A program made the position numbers and the translations under genes. From Stackebrandtia endophytica (lineage in GTDB: Bacteria > Actinomycetota > Actinomycetes > Mycobacteriales > Micromonosporaceae), in contig NZ_VFOW01000001.1 in assembly GCF_006716355.1 (NCBI RefSeq), positions 5,394,001 to 5,458,000 on the forward strand: a stretch of 64,000 nt of DNA, read 5' to 3'. Each line of letters begins with the position of its first letter. Positions within the stretch are counted from its first letter, which is position 1. Shown one piece after another: positions 4,426 to 14,391 of the stretch. The notes under the pieces were generated by a model, which made no database searches, had not been told where the DNA came from, and saw only the letters and a list, made by a program, of their open reading frames with translations.

Positions 4426-5034
4426 TCAACCATGTCGCTCCGCACGGCGGGTCAACAGCGTCTGGGTACGTCGAATCGCCCGGTGTTGGAGTGTCTTGAC
4501 GGCGTCTTCCGAGATGCCGAGTCGTTGAGCCGTTTCGGCAACGCTTTGGCCGCGTTGGAAGCGTAGGTAGAGGCAGTAGCGTTGACGGTCGGTGAGCTTG
4601 GTGAGGATTTCGCCGACCAGGTGCGCTTTGAACTGGTGGTCGAGGTGTTGCACCGCCAGTTCGGCGGGTCCCGGCGTGAGATCGACCCGGTCGATGAGCT
4701 CTTCGGAGCCCGAGGAGGGCACCTCTCGACGGGAAGCCGCCCGGTGATAGTCGAGCACGAGTCGGATGGCGATGGTGGTGAGCCAGGCGCCGAACGAGGT
4801 GCCCTTCCACTGGAATGTGTCGATGCGGGACATCGCGCGGTAGAAGGTCTCGGAGATCATGTCTTCGGCGTCGGAGCGCAGGGTGTTCTGCATCCGCCGG
4901 TAGATCACCCGTTTTATCTGTGGATAGTGCTGACGGTACAACGATTCGAAGGCGGTCAGGTCGCCCGCCAACGCGGCTTTGATGTCGTCGGGGGCATGCA
5001 GTGATTCGGTGCCCGCATTATCGGTGTTGGTCAT
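4426..5034 (-). CDS. RNA polymerase sigma factor, ECF-like (sigma-70 family)
   Basis: The 202-residue protein has sigma region 2 at about residues 25-95 (FESLYRQHYPQIKRVIYRR; DAEDMISETFYRAM) and region 4 at about 140-195 (LTDRQRYCLYLRFQRGQSVAETAQRLGISED cut into its helix-turn-helix parts), with no regions 1.1 or 3. It should direct RNA polymerase to a specific promoter set. No membrane anti-sigma gene is adjacent, so its control is not evident. The start at 5034 has AAGGA 7 nt upstream; an ATG two codons earlier overlaps that ribosome site. Its own promoter should lie in the 570-nt gap upstream. Confidence 0.88.
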   Translation of the reverse strand: MTNTDNAGTESLHAPDDIKAALAGDLTAFESLYRQHYPQIKRVIYRRMQNTLRSDAEDMISETFYRAMSRIDTFQWKGTSFGAWLTTIAIRLVLDYHRAASRREVPSSGSEELIDRVDLTPGPAELAVQHLDHQFKAHLVGEILTKLTDRQRYCLYLRFQRGQSVAETAQRLGISEDAVKTLQHRAIRRTQTLLTRRAERHG

Positions 5035-5610
5035 GTTCATTCCTTTATGGATTGACGAGGAATCCGAACGAACGACCGGGAGATCGGCCGGTTAACCAGG
5101 AAGGTGTCGATGGCTCGACAGCTGAGCTGACCAGCGCTCTGAGCGGCGAGGCCTGCCTTAGCGCGTTGATCTCAGTGCGGTCCACATGATCGCGTGACGG
5201 TTGACCACCGAGCAGGTGTGCCGCTGGTATACCGCTGGTTTCCGTTGGGTTGGTCTTCGCGTGATGAGGAAGGACGCGACCCCGGGGCAACCGGCATGAC
5301 GGCCCATGCCCGCGTCATCGGCGATGTGCCGATGACGACCGCGCGCGGCATGGGTCGGCGATGAGCGGTGCCGTACTCGCGCCCCGTGTTCGGGCACCTT
5401 GAATCGTTGACGGCGGCATGAGCCGACCGCGATCATCGCGGTGGTCAACGGACGGCATCGGTGGCCGTGTTGCAACTGCGTCGGCGCCGTCGGCTTCGGC
5501 CGGCCGGCGTGATGCGTCGGTGTCTCGATATGGCTGCCCATCGGAGTTCCTGGTCGGGACAAGGAAATGCCGCTACGGCACAGGCCGAATTCCTGACCTG
5601 TCTTCTGTGC
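5035..5610. other. intergenic region upstream of the sigma factor
   Basis: This 576-nt stretch has no convincing reading frame. It must hold the sigma-gene promoter and contains the large imperfect hairpin at 5303-5354. Nothing else was recognised. Confidence 0.6.
5303..5354 (-). terminator. two-tier hairpin (terminator or structured leader)
   Basis: An outer 8-bp stem, CCCATGCC (5303-5310) with GGCATGGG (5347-5354), encloses a perfect 10-bp inner stem, CGTCATCGGC (5313-5322) with GCCGATGACG (5328-5337), closing a 5-nt loop. It lies 256 nt past the stop of the PAS-ANTAR-STAS gene and 269 nt before the sigma start. It could end the first transcript or be a 5' leader structure of the second. 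Confidence 0.5.
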
Positions 5611-6639
5611 TCAAGGCGAGTACCCAACGTGAGCCAATGATAAAGATCTACCCGATATGACGGATTTGGTCAAGATGTCAGGCTTGATTGATGATCGGCC
5701 GGTGATCAACGGCTCGAACTCCGGCCACCGAAACGGCGGCGCCTCCGGCGACACGACCGTCACCCGCTGGCCGCGGCGTTGGCGGGTCTTGCGGCAGAAT
5801 CCGGCCAGTTCCCACATGCCCGCCGATGCCAGGTGGCGCACTCGGCTCAAATCGATGATCAGCTCGTGGCGGGGGTGGGTCCGTGATGCGGAGATCAGGG
5901 TCTGGGCCATGCTCGGGATGGCGGCTAGATTGACCACACCGTGCATCACGACGGTGGTGGCCGACGGTTCGGTCCTGATCTCGGTATGGAAGTCGCCGAT
6001 CTCTTCCGGTGGGGTAGACGTCGTCGGCTCCGTGGGGCGGATGACCGCGTCGCTGAGCACCTGGTCTACGGCTGTGCTGTCGGGGCTTGATCGATTCACG
6101 GTCTCGCCGGCGGCCGTGATCACGCGTTCGGCCATCACCCGGACTTTGGTGTTGTGGCGTTGCGACAGCCAACGCAGGAGATGAAACGCCTGCTGCGCGG
6201 TCATGGCATAGGCCAACATGAGGATGCCCTGCGCCTGATCGATGACACGGTGGGAGTCGATGGCGCGGGCGATGTCGGATTGGGTCTGATGAATGGTCTC
6301 GGCCCGCAACTCCGTCGTCACGTCGCTGGTGACGCCGTGCACCTCGGGGGAGTCGTCATCGTCGAGCAAGGTCAGTGTGGTCACGACGGTGCGTCGGTGG
6401 TCCACGGCGTTGATGTGGTGTAGACGGGAGATCGGGACGGACCCGCTCAGCCCGCTGGCGAGCAACTGGTTGAATCGCTCGTTGTCGGCGTCGGTGAGGT
6501 GGTGCGCGATCAGGGCCCGGGAGGGTACGACCTCTCCGGGTTCGAATCCGAACAGTCGGAACATACCCGCCGACCACCGCCAGGAGTCGTCACCGGGTCG
6601 GTACACAAAGACGCCATTGTGGATTGTTGGAGACATCAT
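5611..6639 (-). CDS. PAS-ANTAR-STAS fusion regulator
   Basis: Three regulatory modules lie in one 342-residue chain. A PAS fold comes first (about residues 5-105; VFVYRPGDDSWRWSAGMFRL, then a C-terminal HGVTSDVT strand). An ANTAR RNA-binding helix bundle follows (about 125-185; AIDSHRVIDQAQGILMLAY, then RHNTKVRVMAERVI). A C-terminal STAS domain ends the protein (about 220-320; ELIIDLSRVRHLASAGM). PAS would sense a ligand or redox state, ANTAR binds nascent RNA to block termination, and STAS normally binds an anti-sigma kinase. In the usual DSSG phosphosite the residues are ASAG here, so the second Ser is lost. The start at 6639 has GAGG 6 nt upstream. It lies next to an orphan sigma factor. 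Confidence 0.85.
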   Translation of the reverse strand: MMSPTIHNGVFVYRPGDDSWRWSAGMFRLFGFEPGEVVPSRALIAHHLTDADNERFNQLLASGLSGSVPISRLHHINAVDHRRTVVTTLTLLDDDDSPEVHGVTSDVTTELRAETIHQTQSDIARAIDSHRVIDQAQGILMLAYAMTAQQAFHLLRWLSQRHNTKVRVMAERVITAAGETVNRSSPDSTAVDQVLSDAVIRPTEPTTSTPPEEIGDFHTEIRTEPSATTVVMHGVVNLAAIPSMAQTLISASRTHPRHELIIDLSRVRHLASAGMWELAGFCRKTRQRRGQRVTVVSPEAPPFRWPEFEPLITGRSSIKPDILTKSVISGRSLSLAHVGYSP

Positions 6640-6867
6640 TGCCGACCTCGTGCTCGTAACCGAATGCTTGTCGCGGTGTCGTGTTCGTCCAGTCGGTGAA
6701 GTGGGCACCGCAAGCCGATGATGGCGACGTGAAGTCGGGGATTCCCCTCACGTACAGTGACTTTCGTCGTCGATCATGATCACGATAGCAAGTTGTCGGA
6801 TCTGCTGGTTACCCTCGGTAGGTGGTGTCGGGGGTGAGACTCACCGTCGTCGCTTCGACGGGCGTGG

Positions 6868-8142
6868 CTAACCGTATGTGGTCGCCAACGATCCCCAGAT
6901 CACCGGCGAGTACACCGCGAGACCGGTGGCCTCCCACCGATCCGCCTGTTCTCGCTGCCAATGGTTGAGAACGGCGACAGGGCGATCGGCCTCGTGTGCT
7001 TCATCGACGGCGATGATCGCATCGGACAGTGGGCGAGCGCTCTGGTCGGCGTTGGTGACGAATCGGTGGATGCCATGATCGGTGGGTAGGGTCCACCGGG
7101 TCGCGGTCACGTACTGAGCTCCGGAGTGGATGGCGGCGGCGACCAGGCCCGCCGGCTCGGCGAACCGCGTCTCACCACCGCTTTCGCATGCGATCAGCGC
7201 GACCCGGTTGGGCATCCGCCATGCGGCGAGCTGCTGCGGGTCGTGGCCCAAGGCGATGTCGGCCGCCGTGAGAGGACGATGCGCGCCGACCGGCGCGGCC
7301 CGGCCGGGTGCCGTGGCGGGGCAGCTGAGGTGCAGCCGGGCGTCCAGGCTGTACTCGGAGGTCGTGACATGTCCGACGTAGAGGAAGCGAGAGGCCTCCG
7401 CCAGCATCGAGTGCAGTTCGTCTCGGGTGACGTCGTCTCGACGGAACGCGTCGGCGTCGTGGGATGGCCCCAGCATCGCTCTGTCACCCCAGGAGGCCAC
7501 CATGTCTCGCAGCGGGGAGTCGTCGGCGACCAGCCCCAGTACCGACCCCATCGGTGAGGACGCGTCGAATCCCGGCACTCGGGGGTCGAGTGCGCAGGCG
7601 ATGGTGCCGTCGGGGTCCCACGCGGAGACCCGCCGCTGTGGCGTGTTGCGTATCGTGGCCGGCGTCAACACCGAGACGTCGGTGTTGTGGACGACTCGTT
7701 CGCCCTCGTCCACTCGCAGGCTCTCCCACGGCACCTGCGCGGTCGACGGTGATGGCTGCAGTCGGATGTGGGAGCGAACTCCCTGTTCGAGAAGGCTGTT
7801 CAGCTCCACCGCCAGTGGGTGGGGAAAGAGGGAGGCCGCCAGTTTCGTCGCCAACTCGATCTCCCGATCGAGGTCGGTGAGCGGACCGTGGGTCAGCGAT
7901 CTGGTCAGCGCCTCCTCGACGGATTCACCCTCCAGAGGGGAGGGTAGCGCGTGGAGGAGTTCGTGCAATGCCTCGTGGACCGACTGCCAGGGGATGACGA
8001 ACGCCCGCATGGTCGTCAGTTGATGTTCCCAACGCCAGCTCATAAACAGATCGCCGGCTTCGACGATCTTCAGTTGAACGGTAGGCTGGAAGGTGCCGTC
8101 GAGTCCGTCGAGGACATAAGAGGGATCGGGATTCATCACCAT
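6868..8142 (-). CDS. CHAT-domain (caspase-like) cysteine protease
   Basis: This is the last gene of a four-gene operon; 424 residues. The C-terminal half is a CHAT domain: VPWESL at about 138, the catalytic His in FLYVGHV (His258) and the catalytic Cys in VALIACESGGE (Cys319), ending with the WGSLATTYG tail typical of the fold. CHAT proteins are clan CD proteases related to caspases and separase, and often sit with TPR proteins in bacterial conflict or defence loci. The N-terminal 110 residues match nothing I know. ATG at 8142 has GAGGAG 8 nt upstream and overlaps the TPR stop by 7 nt, so translation is coupled. Substrate and trigger are unknown; the TPR partner is the obvious candidate sensor. 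Confidence 0.85.
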   Translation of the reverse strand: MVMNPDPSYVLDGLDGTFQPTVQLKIVEAGDLFMSWRWEHQLTTMRAFVIPWQSVHEALHELLHALPSPLEGESVEEALTRSLTHGPLTDLDREIELATKLAASLFPHPLAVELNSLLEQGVRSHIRLQPSPSTAQVPWESLRVDEGERVVHNTDVSVLTPATIRNTPQRRVSAWDPDGTIACALDPRVPGFDASSPMGSVLGLVADDSPLRDMVASWGDRAMLGPSHDADAFRRDDVTRDELHSMLAEASRFLYVGHVTTSEYSLDARLHLSCPATAPGRAAPVGAHRPLTAADIALGHDPQQLAAWRMPNRVALIACESGGETRFAEPAGLVAAAIHSGAQYVTATRWTLPTDHGIHRFVTNADQSARPLSDAIIAVDEAHEADRPVAVLNHWQREQADRWEATGLAVYSPVIWGSLATTYG

Positions 8143-9809
8143 GAGTCGATCTCCTCGCGGGTGCGTACCGGGAACCCGTAGCGTTCCTCGGCTCGATCGA
8201 TCCAATCCGACAGCACCGCGGACCGATCGGGGTCGATGCGAAGTCGAGGTGGCAGACCGAAACCCGACACCGGGAAGGACTCCGTTTCATCGATGGCGGT
8301 CAGTGCCGCACCGGCGGCGAACGGCAGTGTCGCTTCCTCGATCGACGGCTCCCACGCTTGCGGGCCGGTCAACGAGTCGAAGGCCTGTGCCAAGCCGATT
8401 TGTAGCGGGTTCAGCTGGGTTTCCGACCGGAGTGAGACCGTCGCACTGACATTTTCGATCAGCTCCCACAGCAGAGCGATGTCGTGAAGCTGAACCGTCA
8501 GCGAGAACACCATCGCCATCACCGGCTCCGAAACGGCGGCGACCCATCGTTCGCGGGCCGGCCCCGGGGCGAACCGGTGCCGGATCGCGTCGGTCGCCAA
8601 TGCCGCCGGCAGCGCCAGATCCAGGGACTCCCGGAGATATCGGAGTTGGTCCTGCTGAGTGGTGGCGTGGACCGCTCGTAGATATCTGGCCACCGCGCGA
8701 CGACCGTCCAGACGCGCCGCCTGGAAGTTGGCGCCCGCCGAGGTGTGCGTCCGGCGCGCGATCAGATACAGTTCCTCGGCACCGTCGTAGTCACCGTCGA
8801 CGGTCAACAAGTCGCCCAACAGGCCTCGGCATTCGGCCACGGTGGTCGAATTACCGGTGGCGGCGAGCCCGGTCAGTGAACCGGTCAGTAGCGCCCGGGC
8901 CTGTTCGAGGTCACCGTCGTTGATGGCCAGAACGCCTCGGCTGTACTGGATCTCGGCCGCCCTGCCCGGCTGCTCGCAGGTGGTGAAGGCCTCTTCGGCC
9001 TGAGCGAACGCATCGGCGGCGGCGGTGAAGTCACCTCGTCGCATGGCCAGCCGACCCAGGTTGGCCACGGCCGCGGCTCTGGCCGATCGGTCGGAATCGA
9101 CGGCGTGGACGTCGGCGGACAGCTGCAGGAACTCCTCGGCGGCGAGATAATCGCCGGTGGCCTCCATGATGATGGCCAGCGTCGTATAGGAGTACCCCGC
9201 CAGCGCCGGGAAATGGCGCATCGCCAACTCGAGTCCGGCTCGGGCCTCGGTCTCGGCCTCGGTCCACCGATCCAGGCTGACCAGGGTGTTGGCCTTGGTG
9301 TTGTGGAGACTGTGAGCCAGCAGATTGTCGTTGTCCCGAGTCCCACCCGAGGCCAGGTCCAAGGCGGCGTCCAGATCCAGCAGGGAATCCTCCAGCCGCC
9401 CGACCCGGTGCAGGGTCTGCGCCCGGTTGATGAGGGTCGACGCCTTGACCGCGCGGGTGCCGTAACGATCGCCGACCTGCTCCAAGGCTCGGTCACACGC
9501 CTCCAACGCCTCGGCGGCGAACGCGAACGCGCCGCTGATGTCACCCTGGGTTTCGCTCAATCCGGCCAGATTTCCCGAGACCCGGGCTCGCGCGTCCCAT
9601 CCGGCGGCGTCGATGTCGTCCACCAGCGTCAGTCGGTAGGCGGCGTCGTACTTCGCTCTGGCCTCCGACAGTCGTCCCTGTTCGGCCAGCTGGCTGCCCG
9701 CGTTGTTGAGGTCCCGAAACGGGTGCCACCTCGGCCCCAGGGTCGTGCTGACTTTAACGCCGAGTCTCTCCGGTTGGTCGGTCGGTTGGTCATCGGGGGA
9801 CGACGTCAC
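8136..9809 (-). CDS. tetratricopeptide-repeat protein of the CHAT operon
   Basis: The 557-residue, almost entirely helical protein has successive TPR-like helix pairs from about residue 30 to 360 (for example LNNAGSQLAEQGRLSEARAK, AVANLGRLAMRRGDFTAAAD, CRGLLGDLLTVDGDYDGAEE). The last 150 residues lack repeats, and the C-terminus ends WIDRAEERYGFPV. TPR stacks bind peptides or partners; in CHAT loci the TPR protein is commonly the scaffold, substrate or sensor of the protease. It overlaps the gene before by 4 nt and the CHAT gene by 7 nt, which implies stoichiometric co-translation. No signal peptide is seen, so it is cytoplasmic. Confidence 0.8.
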   Translation of the reverse strand: MTSSPDDQPTDQPERLGVKVSTTLGPRWHPFRDLNNAGSQLAEQGRLSEARAKYDAAYRLTLVDDIDAAGWDARARVSGNLAGLSETQGDISGAFAFAAEALEACDRALEQVGDRYGTRAVKASTLINRAQTLHRVGRLEDSLLDLDAALDLASGGTRDNDNLLAHSLHNTKANTLVSLDRWTEAETEARAGLELAMRHFPALAGYSYTTLAIIMEATGDYLAAEEFLQLSADVHAVDSDRSARAAAVANLGRLAMRRGDFTAAADAFAQAEEAFTTCEQPGRAAEIQYSRGVLAINDGDLEQARALLTGSLTGLAATGNSTTVAECRGLLGDLLTVDGDYDGAEELYLIARRTHTSAGANFQAARLDGRRAVARYLRAVHATTQQDQLRYLRESLDLALPAALATDAIRHRFAPGPARERWVAAVSEPVMAMVFSLTVQLHDIALLWELIENVSATVSLRSETQLNPLQIGLAQAFDSLTGPQAWEPSIEEATLPFAAGAALTAIDETESFPVSGFGLPPRLRIDPDRSAVLSDWIDRAEERYGFPVRTREEIDSW

Positions 9810-10852
9810 CGTTCGGCCCCCGCGATCCGTTCGGCCAGCAGGCCGTCCGACGCGGCCAGTCGGTGCCGCGCGTGAGCCAGGATGTCCTCGTGCCGATCTG
9901 CCAGATCCGCGGCCGGACCGTTCGGTTCTCCCATGACGGGTGAATAGACGATCGGTTGTCGCCGATCGGTGGGAGTGAGTAGGAACGTCGTGGCCACCGT
10001 GGTCTGTCCGAAGAAGAGCGGTAGGTCGGGTGAACGTTCCAGTTCCACCTCGGTCTCACCCAGTCGTGCGACCAACGGAACGTCCGCCGGGGACCCGGCC
10101 ATCGGGACCGATACCGATACGGTCAGTACCCCTTGGTGCCTGGTCAGTTCCCAGTGTGCCGTCGCGGCGGCGTCGACCATTCCGGCCGGGATCAGGTTCC
10201 AATCGATGACCGCCTCCCCGTCGGCCGCGGTGGTGGTCGCCTGCCGCTGGTGGCCTGCGGCCAGCGCCACGTCGTCCGGGCCCAGTGCCGTCGAGATCCG
10301 GACCGGTTCCACCCCGTAGTCCTCGGCGAGTTCGTCGAGCTGATCGATCAGCTCGACAATCTGCTCGGTGTACCGCGCATGCGTGGAGAGCTCCACCAGC
10401 CGTTCGAAGTTCACCGTCGACAGTGTCCGTTGGACCGCGTCCTCGTCGTCGAGAAGGTGCTCGGCGGCACTCACGTGGCGGGCCGCCTCGGCGTTGAGCA
10501 GATCGATCGACAGCCGAGGAATACCGGTCAGTGCGGACTCCGGCCACCAGCTTCGGGCCCATTCGATGTGCGCCAACCGTTTGGTCGCACGCAGCACGGG
10601 GGAGACCGCGACGGGGTCGATGTCGTCGTCACCGCCCAGGATGCCCCGGATGGACTCCGCACCGTAGATCTCCCACAGCCAGTCGGCGGCGCGATCGAGG
10701 TCGAAGACCTTCGCGGCGGGATAGATCGTGTCCGCCAGTTCGTCCCACATGAGTAGGCCGCCGTCGGCCTCGACCATCGCGGTGCGTTCGGGATGCGGTG
10801 GCACCGTTCCTATGATCAGGTACTCGTCGGTGCGCAGTATCGGAATGGTCAT
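9806..10852 (-). CDS. unrecognised protein, second gene of the CHAT operon
   Basis: 348 residues; I do not recognise the family. The N-terminal two thirds are helical and acidic (ELIDQLDELAEDYGVEPV). Residues about 220-290 look like a beta sandwich (WELTRHQGVLTVSVSVPM, LVARLGETEVELERS). A helical tail follows. It has no signal peptide, membrane segment or nucleotide-binding motif. Four-nt overlaps on both sides (start 10852 with the upstream stop at 10849; stop 9806 with the TPR start at 9809) show that it belongs to the system. It may be an adaptor or target of the protease. Confidence 0.7.
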   Translation of the reverse strand: MTIPILRTDEYLIIGTVPPHPERTAMVEADGGLLMWDELADTIYPAAKVFDLDRAADWLWEIYGAESIRGILGGDDDIDPVAVSPVLRATKRLAHIEWARSWWPESALTGIPRLSIDLLNAEAARHVSAAEHLLDDEDAVQRTLSTVNFERLVELSTHARYTEQIVELIDQLDELAEDYGVEPVRISTALGPDDVALAAGHQRQATTTAADGEAVIDWNLIPAGMVDAAATAHWELTRHQGVLTVSVSVPMAGSPADVPLVARLGETEVELERSPDLPLFFGQTTVATTFLLTPTDRRQPIVYSPVMGEPNGPAADLADRHEDILAHARHRLAASDGLLAERIAGAER

Positions 10853-12129
10853 CGGCCCCGCCCCAATGTGTCCTTGAGTCGATCACGTTGATCCATGATC
10901 ACCGATCGAAGTACACCGTCGAGGAGATCCCAGATCGCATCGGCGGTAACGGATTCACCACGCATTTCGCGGCCGTGCAGCCGCACCCACAGTCGGCGCA
11001 GATAGGCGCGCCGCGGATGTCGGACATCGGTTCGCAAGTCCTCGGGCAGTCCCGGCGCGGCGCGGTCGGGCAGTCGGAGGACCCGGTGCACGTAGGCCTG
11101 TCGTTGCCAACGGGACCGCAGTCTGGCCCGGGCGTCTCCGCGAGCCATGGCCGGGCCGGGGTCGGTGAGGTCTGCGGTGGCGTCGCGTCCCAACACCATG
11201 GCGACCCGACTGGGTTCCTCGGCCAGCTGCCAGGCTCCGGCGGACCGGTGAATCTCCTGGCGTATCAAGGCGGGTATGTCGGCCATGGATTCGCGGTGGA
11301 AGACGGCTGTGAAGGACGCGAACGCCCGTTCCAGAATGGAGCGATCGAATGGGGGCGGCAGACGGGTCTTCGATGCACGATCCCCCAACCGGGGCGGAGC
11401 CACCCGGCGATGCCTGCTCAACCCGTGATCGCGAGCCACCCCGTCACCGGTCAGTTCATTCGCCTCGTGGGTACCGACCCGGTGAGCGGTGAGCCGGTGG
11501 AACATCTCGGAGTCGGGCGCGGTGGCGCACACCGCCAGGAACTCGGAACGGGCGTCGAGATCGGCGCGGCCGTCGATGATCCTGCGGTCGGTGCGCCAGG
11601 CCGCTCCCAACAGTTGATTCAACTCGGGAACATTGCCGGGGTCGGTGATATAGCCGCGCAGCTGTTCCACCGTCTTGTTCCCGCGCGACGATCGCACATC
11701 CTCGACGAGTTCGGCCGCCAGTTCGGCTGCGGCTGTTGCCTGGTCGGGTGTCCCGTGCAGGTGCGCCAACTCGAAACAACGCTGGAAATACAGATCCTGC
11801 GGATTGCCGTCGGTGACCCCGGCCTTGCGCCGGGTTCGCTTCACCAGCTGGTACCACGCGGCGGTGGCGGCCAGTACCGGTCCGGCTTCACGGATTCGAG
11901 TGCGCAGGTCGTCGACGTGTTCGATGTCGACCGCCGACCCTGCGAACCGCGGATTCTGGACCGGTCGCAGTACCAACGGATCGAGAATCAGCTTCACGGT
12001 ACGTGCCAACGGCCGTCCCGACGAGTTGCTCAACGGTGCGACGGCGTCGCTGAGCTGAGACCACGCGTCGGCGATGACCATGCCACGAGGCAACGCCACA
12101 CCACGATGAGGGGATATCGCCTGCTCCAC
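10849..12129 (-). CDS. unrecognised Arg-rich helical protein, first gene of the CHAT operon
   Basis: 426 residues with no family that I recognise. It is predicted to be nearly all helical, with a strongly basic C-terminal third (RARLRSRWQRQAYVHRVLRL; YLRRLWVRLHGREMRG). The middle region holds an Arg/His-rich linker (LSRHRRVAPPRLGDRASKTR). The basic surface could bind nucleic acid or acidic protein, but this is inference. The GTG start at 12129 has no ribosome site but lies 6 nt after TAGACT, so it is probably translated from a leaderless mRNA. As the promoter-proximal gene it may be the regulator or recognition component. Confidence 0.7.
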   Translation of the reverse strand: MEQAISPHRGVALPRGMVIADAWSQLSDAVAPLSNSSGRPLARTVKLILDPLVLRPVQNPRFAGSAVDIEHVDDLRTRIREAGPVLAATAAWYQLVKRTRRKAGVTDGNPQDLYFQRCFELAHLHGTPDQATAAAELAAELVEDVRSSRGNKTVEQLRGYITDPGNVPELNQLLGAAWRTDRRIIDGRADLDARSEFLAVCATAPDSEMFHRLTAHRVGTHEANELTGDGVARDHGLSRHRRVAPPRLGDRASKTRLPPPFDRSILERAFASFTAVFHRESMADIPALIRQEIHRSAGAWQLAEEPSRVAMVLGRDATADLTDPGPAMARGDARARLRSRWQRQAYVHRVLRLPDRAAPGLPEDLRTDVRHPRRAYLRRLWVRLHGREMRGESVTADAIWDLLDGVLRSVIMDQRDRLKDTLGRGR

Positions 12130-12135
12130 ACCGGC

Positions 12136-12164
12136 AGTCTATGGGGTGTGTCTAGCGGTGACAA
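12136..12164 (-). promoter_or_regulatory. promoter of the CHAT operon (leaderless)
   Basis: Read on the minus strand: TTGTCA (12164-12159), 17-bp spacer, TAGACT (12141-12136), then 6 nt to the GTG at 12129. This is close to the housekeeping consensus at both boxes and predicts a transcript beginning at the start codon. Confidence 0.65.
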
Positions 12165-12174
12165 CACGGTCACC
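12157..12174. promoter_or_regulatory. inverted repeat over the -35 box of the CHAT operon
   Basis: GGTGAC (12157-12162), 6-bp spacer, GTCACC (12169-12174). It overlaps the -35 hexamer and so could be an operator for a dimeric repressor. It may also act on the divergent gene at 12256. Confidence 0.45.
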
Positions 12175-12255: not shown

Positions 12256-13515
12256 ATGATCTACGGAAACCAACAGGTACCCGATCCGCCGGTGCGGCCA
12301 GGACATCCACATCTGGTGACCTCCCCCTACGACCGGGAACAGGTAACCAACGTCACGCCGGCGCGCCAGCGCGGGCGGTTCGGCTGGGTGCGGGGAGTAC
12401 TACCGCTGATCGGTTTCGCGTTGTTGTTCTTCGGTGGCAGCTATCTGGTCAGTCCCGAACCCGACATCGAGCTCGAACCCGGATTCGTCGTTGGCCAGAT
12501 CGACGGACGCGACGTGGTATTCGTCCCTTATGAACGGTCCGGTTCGCGGGGGATGTTTCAGCTGATGACCCAGGACATGTTCCAGTCCAGGATCGCCGCG
12601 ATCGACATGGTCACCGGCGATACCTTGTGGGACACCAAGATCGTCGGGGAAATGCTCTCGGAGGGCCGGGTGATCGCCGCCGGACGACAGTACGTCTACA
12701 TCGCCACCCAGGAGGGCCTGACCATTCTGGAGTCGGCCGACGGAGCCGTCGCCGCGGTGCCGGACGCGATCACCGGACTGACCGACGGGTATGTGGCCGA
12801 AGCAGGCGCCTACGGTTTCGACGCCGATGCCGAGGCAGTCGTGGCGATCGACCGGGATGGCGTCTTCCACGTCATCGAGTTGGACGGTCTGACCGCGACT
12901 CCGGCCGACGCGGCGATAACCGATCGATGGACTGGCGTGCTGTCCGGCAGCGGCGGACACTGGACCGTCAGCGGCAAGTCCGACACCTACGGTTTCAACG
13001 GTCCCGAGGAACTCGTGCGGTTGAACCCGGCGAGGCCGGGGGCACTGGGCAGCGTGCTGACCCGAACCTCCATCTCCGGCGAGACCACCCAGATCGGCGA
13101 GGCGGTCTTCTACGACGGAAAACTGGTGATCGACCAGACCGACCTGGCCGTCGACGGCCAGTTGGTCCGCGAGGCCCTCAGCGGAGGTTGGGAACGACAC
13201 GAGGACTACCACTCCGAGATCCAGAACGCGGGAAAGGTCGCCGGAGCCGCGGCCGATGTCGTTCTGATCGAACATGTTCGCGGCGTCGGCGACGACGTTC
13301 AGCTGCTCAGCACCGTGTCACTGGAGACCGGTGAGGTCATCGACACCATCGAGACGGGGTCGTCCTCCGGGCGAAGTATCTGCCTGGAATCCGGCGAGGT
13401 GATCCTGCCGGTTTCCCTGCCGGACAACTGGAGCCCGCATGCTCTGGCATTGATCGATCAACAGGGTGCGATCACGGTCGCCGACGTGGGGTCCGTCGGG
13501 TTCTTCGGATTCTGA
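12256..13515 (+). CDS. PA2928-like membrane-anchored beta-propeller protein
   Basis: 419 residues: a Pro-rich cytoplasmic N-terminus, one membrane segment at about 46-66 (VLPLIGFALLFFGGSYLV), then a large exported domain with propeller-type strands (RIAAIDMVTGDTLWDTKI; AVVAIDRDGVFHVIELDG). This resembles the PA2928 family, whose function is unknown; the strand pattern resembles PQQ-type propellers without known cofactor residues. The ATG at 12256 has AAGGAG 8 nt upstream. The next gene also encodes a small anchored protein, so the pair may work together at the membrane. It is divergent from the CHAT operon. Confidence 0.7.
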   Translation: MIYGNQQVPDPPVRPGHPHLVTSPYDREQVTNVTPARQRGRFGWVRGVLPLIGFALLFFGGSYLVSPEPDIELEPGFVVGQIDGRDVVFVPYERSGSRGMFQLMTQDMFQSRIAAIDMVTGDTLWDTKIVGEMLSEGRVIAAGRQYVYIATQEGLTILESADGAVAAVPDAITGLTDGYVAEAGAYGFDADAEAVVAIDRDGVFHVIELDGLTATPADAAITDRWTGVLSGSGGHWTVSGKSDTYGFNGPEELVRLNPARPGALGSVLTRTSISGETTQIGEAVFYDGKLVIDQTDLAVDGQLVREALSGGWERHEDYHSEIQNAGKVAGAAADVVLIEHVRGVGDDVQLLSTVSLETGEVIDTIETGSSSGRSICLESGEVILPVSLPDNWSPHALALIDQQGAITVADVGSVGFFGF

Positions 13516-13602: not shown

Positions 13603-14391
13603 ATGTTCAAGGCGATCTCCTGGATCACCGTCGCCATCGGTGCGGTGTGCACCGCCATGTGGGCCGTCACCGGATTCACCGGAGAGACCGGCCTCGATTG
13701 GCTCAACGGCTGGATGGTCGGACCGATCCTGCTGGTGTTCGTCGCGCCCAGCCTGTTGGGGGTCAGCCGGATGCTCGGCGGATTCGACATCGACGGCGGC
13801 ATGCCGGAGAAGTTTCAGAACGCCCCGATCGGTATGGGCACCGTGGTGTCGGCCGATCGCACCGGCCTGAGCATCAACGACCAGCCGCAGTTGGACATCC
13901 TGCTGGACATCGACACCCCCGACGGTCAGTCGTTCCGTGGAATGGCCCGTCAGATCATCGATCTGACCGAACTGGCAGCCGTCGTCCCCGGTGCGATGCT
14001 GCCGGTGCGCTACATCCCCGGCAGCAGTGACGGGAAGGTCGCCTTGGCCACCGACGCCTCACAAGCCGAGCTTCAGGCGGCCTTCAACCGGGTGCGGTTG
14101 GCCAAGGGGGAGATGACACCGCGTCAGCTTCAGATCGCGGAGCAGGGAGTGGTCGGACGCGCGGTGGTGCTGGCGATGTCACCCACCGGTGAACTGCGCG
14201 GCGCCAACGCGGTCATCGACATCAAGCTGCGGGTCAGTCGCCCCGACTCGTCCACCTTCGAGATCAGCCAGCACAAACCGATCCCCTCCACCGTCATCCC
14301 GTTGGTCCAACCGGGAATGGTGGTAGAGGTGCGGTATCTACCGGGCGACGAGTCCGAGGTCTCGATAGTGACCCCGGTATCGGCATCGTGA
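13603..14391 (+). CDS. membrane protein with two similar exported or cytosolic beta domains
   Basis: 262 residues. Two membrane segments (about 5-25 and 35-60) are followed by two related beta domains of about 70 residues. Both begin with a GxGxVV-type strand (PIGMGTVVSADRTG and GVVGRAVVLAMSPTG) and end with a near-identical strand (MLPVRYIPGS and VVEVRYLPGD). This implies an internal duplication. The function is unknown. GAGGA precedes the ATG by 6 nt. It follows the PA2928-like gene by 87 nt on the same strand and is probably in the same operon. Confidence 0.65.
   Translation: MFKAISWITVAIGAVCTAMWAVTGFTGETGLDWLNGWMVGPILLVFVAPSLLGVSRMLGGFDIDGGMPEKFQNAPIGMGTVVSADRTGLSINDQPQLDILLDIDTPDGQSFRGMARQIIDLTELAAVVPGAMLPVRYIPGSSDGKVALATDASQAELQAAFNRVRLAKGEMTPRQLQIAEQGVVGRAVVLAMSPTGELRGANAVIDIKLRVSRPDSSTFEISQHKPIPSTVIPLVQPGMVVEVRYLPGDESEVSIVTPVSAS

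Follow-up and report, generated by a model that had tools for sequence, protein, structure and literature searches.

Our study revealed a four-gene operon in Stackebrandtia endophytica that is a new variant of the TPR-CHAT protease systems, in which a CHAT (caspase-like) protease and a tetratricopeptide repeat (TPR) protein are joined by two proteins of no known family, P1 and P2. The operon lies within the window, a stretch of 64,000 nt corresponding to positions 5394001–5458000 of the forward strand of a single-contig genome of 5.66 Mb. All four genes are on the minus strand, in the order P1 (10849–12129; 426 aa, GTG start), P2 (9806–10852; 348 aa, ATG start), the TPR protein or P3 (8136–9809; 557 aa, GTG start) and the CHAT protease or P4 (6868–8142; 424 aa, ATG start). 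Overlaps of 4 nt between P1 and P2, 4 nt between P2 and the TPR gene and 7 nt between the TPR and CHAT genes had been described in an earlier note on this DNA, and these coordinates and starts were confirmed. The four genes form a near-obligate set in related loci, many of which also encode membrane and exported proteins on the opposite strand. We propose that the system may serve Actinobacteria as a dedicated proteolytic switch linked to the envelope, a reading that we regard as evenly balanced between right and wrong.

The protease itself could be assigned with confidence. A match of 46.7 bits to Pfam PF12770 (curated cut-off 24; E=3.8e-12) and the intact dyad His258 (codon 7369–7371, minus strand) and Cys319 (codon 7186–7188, minus strand) together place it in the CHAT family, as the earlier note had held. 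Conservation was examined in 90 CHAT sequences, one of them from the window, whose coverage was 80 % or higher. Gly257-His258 and Cys319 were invariant in 90/90, with Ala318 replaced by Gly in a single sequence. Mean CHAT identity was approximately 52 % over 51 loci. The protein is thus strongly constrained and very probably an active protease, judging from its sequence conservation. The gene preceding it encodes a TPR protein (Pfam TPR_12, E=3.9e-16), again in agreement with the earlier note, and carries a C-terminal region beyond the repeats that recurs in relatives. PDB sequence searches with the CHAT profile and with the TPR protein gave no match.

In 5/105 loci a single open frame spans both the TPR and the CHAT region, and in one locus (L060) the CHAT region begins directly where the TPR region ends. 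These single frames in relatives argue that the window pair is a split TPR-CHAT protease. Such proteases consist of one chain or an obligate pair, and this arrangement was recognized in the 7-nt overlap in the window and in the five single-frame loci. The suggestion that the TPR protein is a substrate of the protease did not hold up as its main role, which is unlikely given that the two form one frame in these relatives.

The 105 loci comprised the best 80 of 423 stretches that encode P1 relatives in a one-genome-per-species scan, 20 loci picked for spread from 66 hit genomes, four from another search and the window itself. Six duplicate pairs, each the same contig from two collections as judged by its length, are included (L008/L071, L044/L064, L045/L099, L058/L072, L059/L108 and L061/L092). 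Gene presence was scored as a profile match at E≤1e-5, which is no proof of an intact gene, and P1 of L120 is spread over two open frames. All four genes were detected in 99/105 loci, so that the co-occurrence in other genomes on which the earlier note had staked its reading was found. The window order P1-P2-TPR-CHAT was seen in 92 loci and the order TPR-CHAT-P1-P2 in seven. Six loci were incomplete; three of these stop at contig ends (L069, L083 and L093) and three truly lack genes. Two of the latter, L081 and L088, have P1-P2 without adjoining TPR-CHAT, and L101 has a shortened P1 alone. A CHAT gene is present elsewhere in the L081 genome, and no such CHAT was found at E≤0.001 in the genomes of L088, L101, G421 and G252, the last of which holds P1 as fragments only. 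The L101 and G421 contigs are of equal length. An apparent P1-P3-P2-P4 order in L060 was rejected as an artefact of a second, distant TPR match. In Rhodococcus opacus and R. koreensis (L114 and L132), TPR and CHAT lie approximately 2.7 kb apart, with extra genes in between.

The association between P1 and this CHAT subfamily was also evident at the genome level. An order survey was conducted on 397 genomes drawn from a larger group, with P1 detected by profile search and CHAT by profile at E≤1e-20. P1 was present in 66/397 genomes and 12/85 genera, and the CHAT subfamily was present in 64 genomes, all 64 of which were also P1-positive. None of the 331 P1-negative genomes carried this CHAT, and the distance from the start of P1 to that of CHAT ranged from 1.25 to 6.44 kb (Fisher p of approximately 3e-72 for co-occurrence, without correction for relatedness). 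The system, or its CHAT gene, is present twice in some genomes, as seen for L116 and L117 in Nocardia albiluteola and for G056, which has a second CHAT copy on a separate contig (C10:37522-38688).

A phylum-wide draw found P1 in 11/396 genomes, all 11 belonging to the same order. The best 80 of the 423 P1 stretches were all from Actinomycetota, and represented Glycomyces, Stackebrandtia, Nocardia, Rhodococcus, Antrihabitans, Streptomyces, Microbacterium, Micropruina and Jiangella, in addition to Pseudonocardiaceae. The system occurred in two of the five genomes of Stackebrandtia. Six plasmid records carried a P1 relative, five from Streptomyces and one, of 2.66 Mb, from Nocardia farcinica; the annotation of two plasmid records showed no features. 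The P1 profile retrieved 20 pattern stretches and zero true relatives from viral contigs, phage records searched with the window P1 yielded no relative, and genome contigs scanned with the CHAT protein alone gave 221 pattern stretches and zero true relatives. The P1 tree (64 rows) follows family largely and genus not cleanly. Nocardiaceae (20/20), Glycomyces (9/9) and Microbacterium (5/5) each formed a single clade, and Saccharothrix, Actinophytocola, Actinokineospora and Streptomyces each appeared at two or more places; this scatter of genera indicates some horizontal transfer. Flanking genes recur inside Nocardia and inside Glycomyces. The distance matrices of the four proteins, compared for the 51 loci alone in which all four were well covered, correlated at 0.86–0.95 against a permuted maximum of 0.27, although shared descent alone raises such values too.

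P1 and P2 had been described as matching nothing recognizable, and this held in every comparison made. No significant Pfam family was found in 64 P1 or 48 P2 sequences, the window's own proteins remaining below the cut-off, and this included the housekeeping families whose presence would have told against a link to CHAT. Matches of P1 to pPIWI_RE_Y (2/64 sequences, best 0.012) were rejected as chance, as were matches to PRODH and GatC (approximately 0.04). Searches of PDB sequences with the P1 and P2 profiles returned no match, an NCBIfam search of the operon proteins returned no specific match, and no transmembrane (TM) helix was predicted in either protein. The AlphaFold model of P1, built from the 64-row alignment, was confident (pLDDT 91.4, pTM 0.82) and helical almost throughout. 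That of P2, from the 48-row alignment (pLDDT 92.9, pTM 0.88), predicts an alpha/beta part at the N terminus and a beta-sandwich at the C terminus; residues 189–202 are uncertain. Foldseek against the PDB gave no match at E≤0.001 for P1 (best 0.74) or P2 (best 0.02). The two modelled structures may therefore be called new folds in the sense of having no detectable solved relative, the fold comparison being against the PDB only.

Neighbour clustering, followed by profile searches over the 105 loci, identified the proteins encoded divergently from P1. In the window, P5 (c0; 13603–14391, plus strand) is a membrane protein of 262 aa with two N-terminal hydrophobic helices and two tandem DUF3592-like repeats. 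The P5 family was detected in 84/105 loci; 83 matches were upstream of P1 on the opposite strand, 81 of them within 2.5 kb, and the remaining match was elsewhere in L060. At least one TM helix was predicted in 85/87 P5 open reading frames (ORFs), and the repeat halves align to each other (hhalign 98.2 %, 3e-14). The window P5 has no Pfam match; DUF3592 was matched below cut-off in P5 relatives, and the divergent protein of L104, a locus with a P5-profile match, gave DUF3592 at 0.068. The repeats are predicted to be cytoplasmic from their charge, as judged by eye. In the order survey, P5 was found at E≤1e-10 in 46/397 genomes, adjoining P1 in 38 and apart from it in eight (six P1-negative genomes, plus G103 and G123, in which it is far from P1). 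At E≤1e-18 it was found in 35 genomes, every one of which was P1-positive.

The second divergent protein is exported. P6 of the window (c1; 12256–13515, plus strand; 419 aa) has one N-terminal TM helix followed by a PQQ-like domain that is predicted to be extramembrane, its PQQ_2 match being weak and under the cut-off (0.0086). P6 was detected in 45/105 loci, always on the strand opposite to P1, and its N-terminal helix has a positive-inside orientation in 44/45 ORFs. A Myco_19_kDa lipoprotein was found in 37/105 loci, and two members tested matched the Pfam family at 3.3e-31 and 3.5e-20. P6 and the lipoprotein are mutually exclusive, never occurring together, and one of them is present in 82/105 loci.

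Two unusual layouts offer the strongest hint of how the components may be wired. The seven TPR-first loci run lipoprotein, TPR and CHAT in one direction, then P5 in the other direction (5/7), followed by P1 and P2 in the first direction. In Actinosynnema sp. ALI-1.44, P5 and P1-P2 are on one contig (L081), and P6, TPR and CHAT are on another (L167). The L167 CHAT (7850–8986) is one open frame of 378 aa in which His and Cys are kept and middle stretches of the window protein are missing. The rearranged loci and this split therefore suggest two modules, one of P5, P1 and P2 and the other of the exported protein, TPR and CHAT.

From these observations we infer a signalling chain that would run from the envelope inwards. 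The TPR and CHAT genes would encode two halves of one protease, for which the single frames in relatives are support, and P1-P2, as near-obligate cytosolic partners, would most likely keep it inactive and pass on the trigger. P5 may tether P1-P2 to the membrane via its DUF3592-like repeats, and the exported protein, P6 here and the Myco_19_kDa lipoprotein in other lineages, may sense the outside; both roles are proposed from predicted topology. An envelope change could then release or reshape P1-P2 and switch on the His258/Cys319 dyad, and active CHAT would cut a cellular protein, with a stress response or a halt in growth as the outcome. The earlier note had cast the basic first protein as sensing or binding a target. 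P1 is indeed mildly basic (66 K+R versus 55 D+E). The divergent membrane protein and its exported partner, both overlooked in that note, nevertheless make it more likely that primary sensing faces the envelope than that it falls to P1. A more specific version, an 'envelope inflammasome' in which P6 or the lipoprotein, with P5, signals inward via P1 and P2 to TPR-CHAT and triggers a death or stress programme, is offered tentatively, as possible and short of even. If true, caspase-family signalling would here start at the cell surface and proceed inwards, in contrast to Craspase, which is cytosolic and RNA-guided.

Several observations weigh against an envelope-linked switch. P5 is absent at profile level from 21/105 loci; among the 66 P1-positive genomes of the order survey, 26 had no P5 match at E≤1e-10 and only 38 had P5 adjoining P1. 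P5 is also shortened in the TPR-first group, with one locus lacking a TM helix, and only 25/37 lipoprotein ORFs contain a lipobox-like pattern. P5, P6 and the lipoprotein are all missing from ten loci (L008, L071, L088, L093, L101, L115, L121, L127, L134 and L139), and L008/L071 is a genus mate of the window. The Streptomyces loci L127 (7438–7869) and L139 (7443–7868) have in the P5 place a small divergent protein with no obvious TM helix, which resembles the P5 repeat by eye. The proposed inhibitory role of P1-P2 depends on few remnants (L088, L101/G421 and G252) and on there being no CHAT without P1.

Some of the ten partnerless loci hold other divergent genes at this position, encoding small P5-repeat-like or other exported-looking proteins, as judged by eye. 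The small divergent protein of L127 gave no Pfam family. In Nocardia L121 (7359–7862) and L134 (7277–7867), the usual place of the lipoprotein is taken by another exported-looking protein, which has a membrane-like stretch rich in glycine.

Four other explanations were weighed. Abortive infection against phage or other invaders, in which P1 or P2 would recognize a cytosolic product of the invader and CHAT would cleave, with P5 and P6 merely reporting phage attachment or membrane damage, is in our judgement unlikely. It would account for the patchy spread across genomes and genera, the plasmid-borne P1 relatives and the genera that are split between separate parts of the P1 tree. Caspase-family proteases also recur in proposed prokaryotic conflict systems (PMC7159879 and PMC8195603), and to this extent the conflict and defence link of the earlier note stands. 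However, no positive phage evidence was obtained: relatives were absent from the viral contigs searched with the P1 profile and the phage records searched with the window P1. No family in PADLOC-DB 2.0.0 matched P1, P2 or CHAT at E≤1 or nine window neighbours at E≤0.01; only its generic TPR model matched the TPR protein (0.00083). The single P1 clades of Nocardiaceae, Glycomyces and Microbacterium, along with the recurring flanks in Nocardia and Glycomyces, also speak against this explanation. The same flanks, the grouping of P1 largely by family and the membrane and exported partners would suit ordinary regulated proteolysis, serving envelope biogenesis, development or the quality control of membrane proteins and playing no part in conflict. 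Patchiness inside genera, as in the window's own, would be unusual for such a housekeeping function, and we consider this explanation distinctly unlikely.

A toxin-antitoxin-like module would make CHAT-TPR a suicide protease and P1-P2 its neutralizer, leaving the envelope genes incidental. The absence of CHAT from all P1-negative genomes, set beside remnants of P1 or P1-P2 that persist without CHAT (L088, L101/G421 and G252), fits such a module. P5, however, is kept adjacent across families and in the rearranged layout, which is not expected of an incidental neighbour, and both partners are sizeable, well-conserved proteins, unlike most antitoxins; we therefore hold this explanation to be improbable. 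A purely scaffolding CHAT protein without catalytic activity is extremely improbable, as the dyad is invariant in all 90 proteins of a family whose identity is so moderate.

Comparison with described systems supports the classification of the locus as a variant. Craspase, the type III-E TPR-CHAT (Csx29) system, is similar in that TPR repeats are joined to a CHAT protease that is kept within a complex and becomes active upon a trigger. It differs in being an RNA-guided complex, whereas here a membrane arm is combined with two partners that have no solved relative, and no RAMP/Cas7-11 family was found on P1, P2, P5 or P6, leaving the protease without an adjacent RAMP. Csx29 entries are presumably in the PDB copy searched, and only then do the null searches with P1, P2 and CHAT exclude Csx29. 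CATRA ('Caspase and TPR repeat-associated') systems, named in PMC12657218 and PMC8195603, likewise associate a prokaryotic caspase-family protease with TPR repeats. However, no CATRA family (e.g. PF20270 CATRA-C, which was in the library) was found for P1 to P4 at E≤1, nor at E≤0.1 in the 64 P1 and 48 P2 sequences, in a comparison made at the level of domains.

The EACC1-caspase system is a membrane-associated two-gene system prevalent in actinobacteria, for which membrane sensing followed by proteolysis has been proposed (Kaur et al. 2020, PMC7159879). It resembles the present locus in combining a membrane component with a caspase-family protease in actinobacteria. The locus differs in having four cytosolic genes, with CHAT after the TPR protein, and a two-TM P5 with DUF3592-like repeats in place of a single-TM EACC1 domain. 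Pfam gave no EACC1 on the window P5 or P6, and hence no single-TM EACC1 5′ of the caspase gene; we take the EACC1 model to be present in the Pfam copy used. No published description of this locus was recognized at the level of titles and abstract starts, the full texts of most subscription papers being outside the scope of the search.

Craspase demonstrates that recognition of RNA can activate a protease of the TPR-CHAT type. To our knowledge, the mechanism that triggers CHAT proteases in settings other than CRISPR is an open question. The system described here provides a protease with a small, fixed partner set, two members of which are confidently modelled and have no solved relative, together with membrane and exported companions. 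Named culture-collection strains of Saccharothrix, Glycomyces and Streptomyces are among the sources of the 423 P1 stretches, and the chain from trigger to protease is thus directly testable in laboratory strains.

The strong promoter claimed in the earlier note was overstated, since the sole promoter-like site upstream of P1 (TTGTCA-17-TAGACT, 12136–12164, minus strand) is weak, with 9 of 12 positions matching, and one such match was found in the scanned stretch where 0.7 would be expected by chance. If the 12164–12136 site is the promoter, the GTG of P1 would be nearly leaderless. The CHAT gene has alternative in-frame starts at ATG 8136, with a 1-nt overlap, and TTG 8205; ATG 8142 was favoured because GAGGAG (8151–8156, minus strand), a likely ribosome-binding site within the end of the TPR gene, lies 8 nt 5′ of it. 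Scanning the window against Rfam returned no match.

Downstream of CHAT, two minus-strand genes (4426–5040 and 5611–6708) resemble, by eye, a sigma factor of the ECF type and a regulator containing PAS and STAS-like parts. A functional connection with this sigma factor, considered by analogy with Craspase, was dropped, as a similar neighbour occurs in only 1/105 loci besides the window, and the same applies to the adjoining gene. A further neighbour, c4, combines an Hsp70 domain (HSP70, 5.8e-26) with a PQQ-like domain (PQQ_2, 6.4e-10). It was rejected as a core part because 12 of the 13 named c4 loci belong to Glycomyces. It was found in 16 loci (L043:3401-6157 and 15 others), 2.7–6.6 kb upstream of P1 and in 15 of them on the strand opposite to P1.

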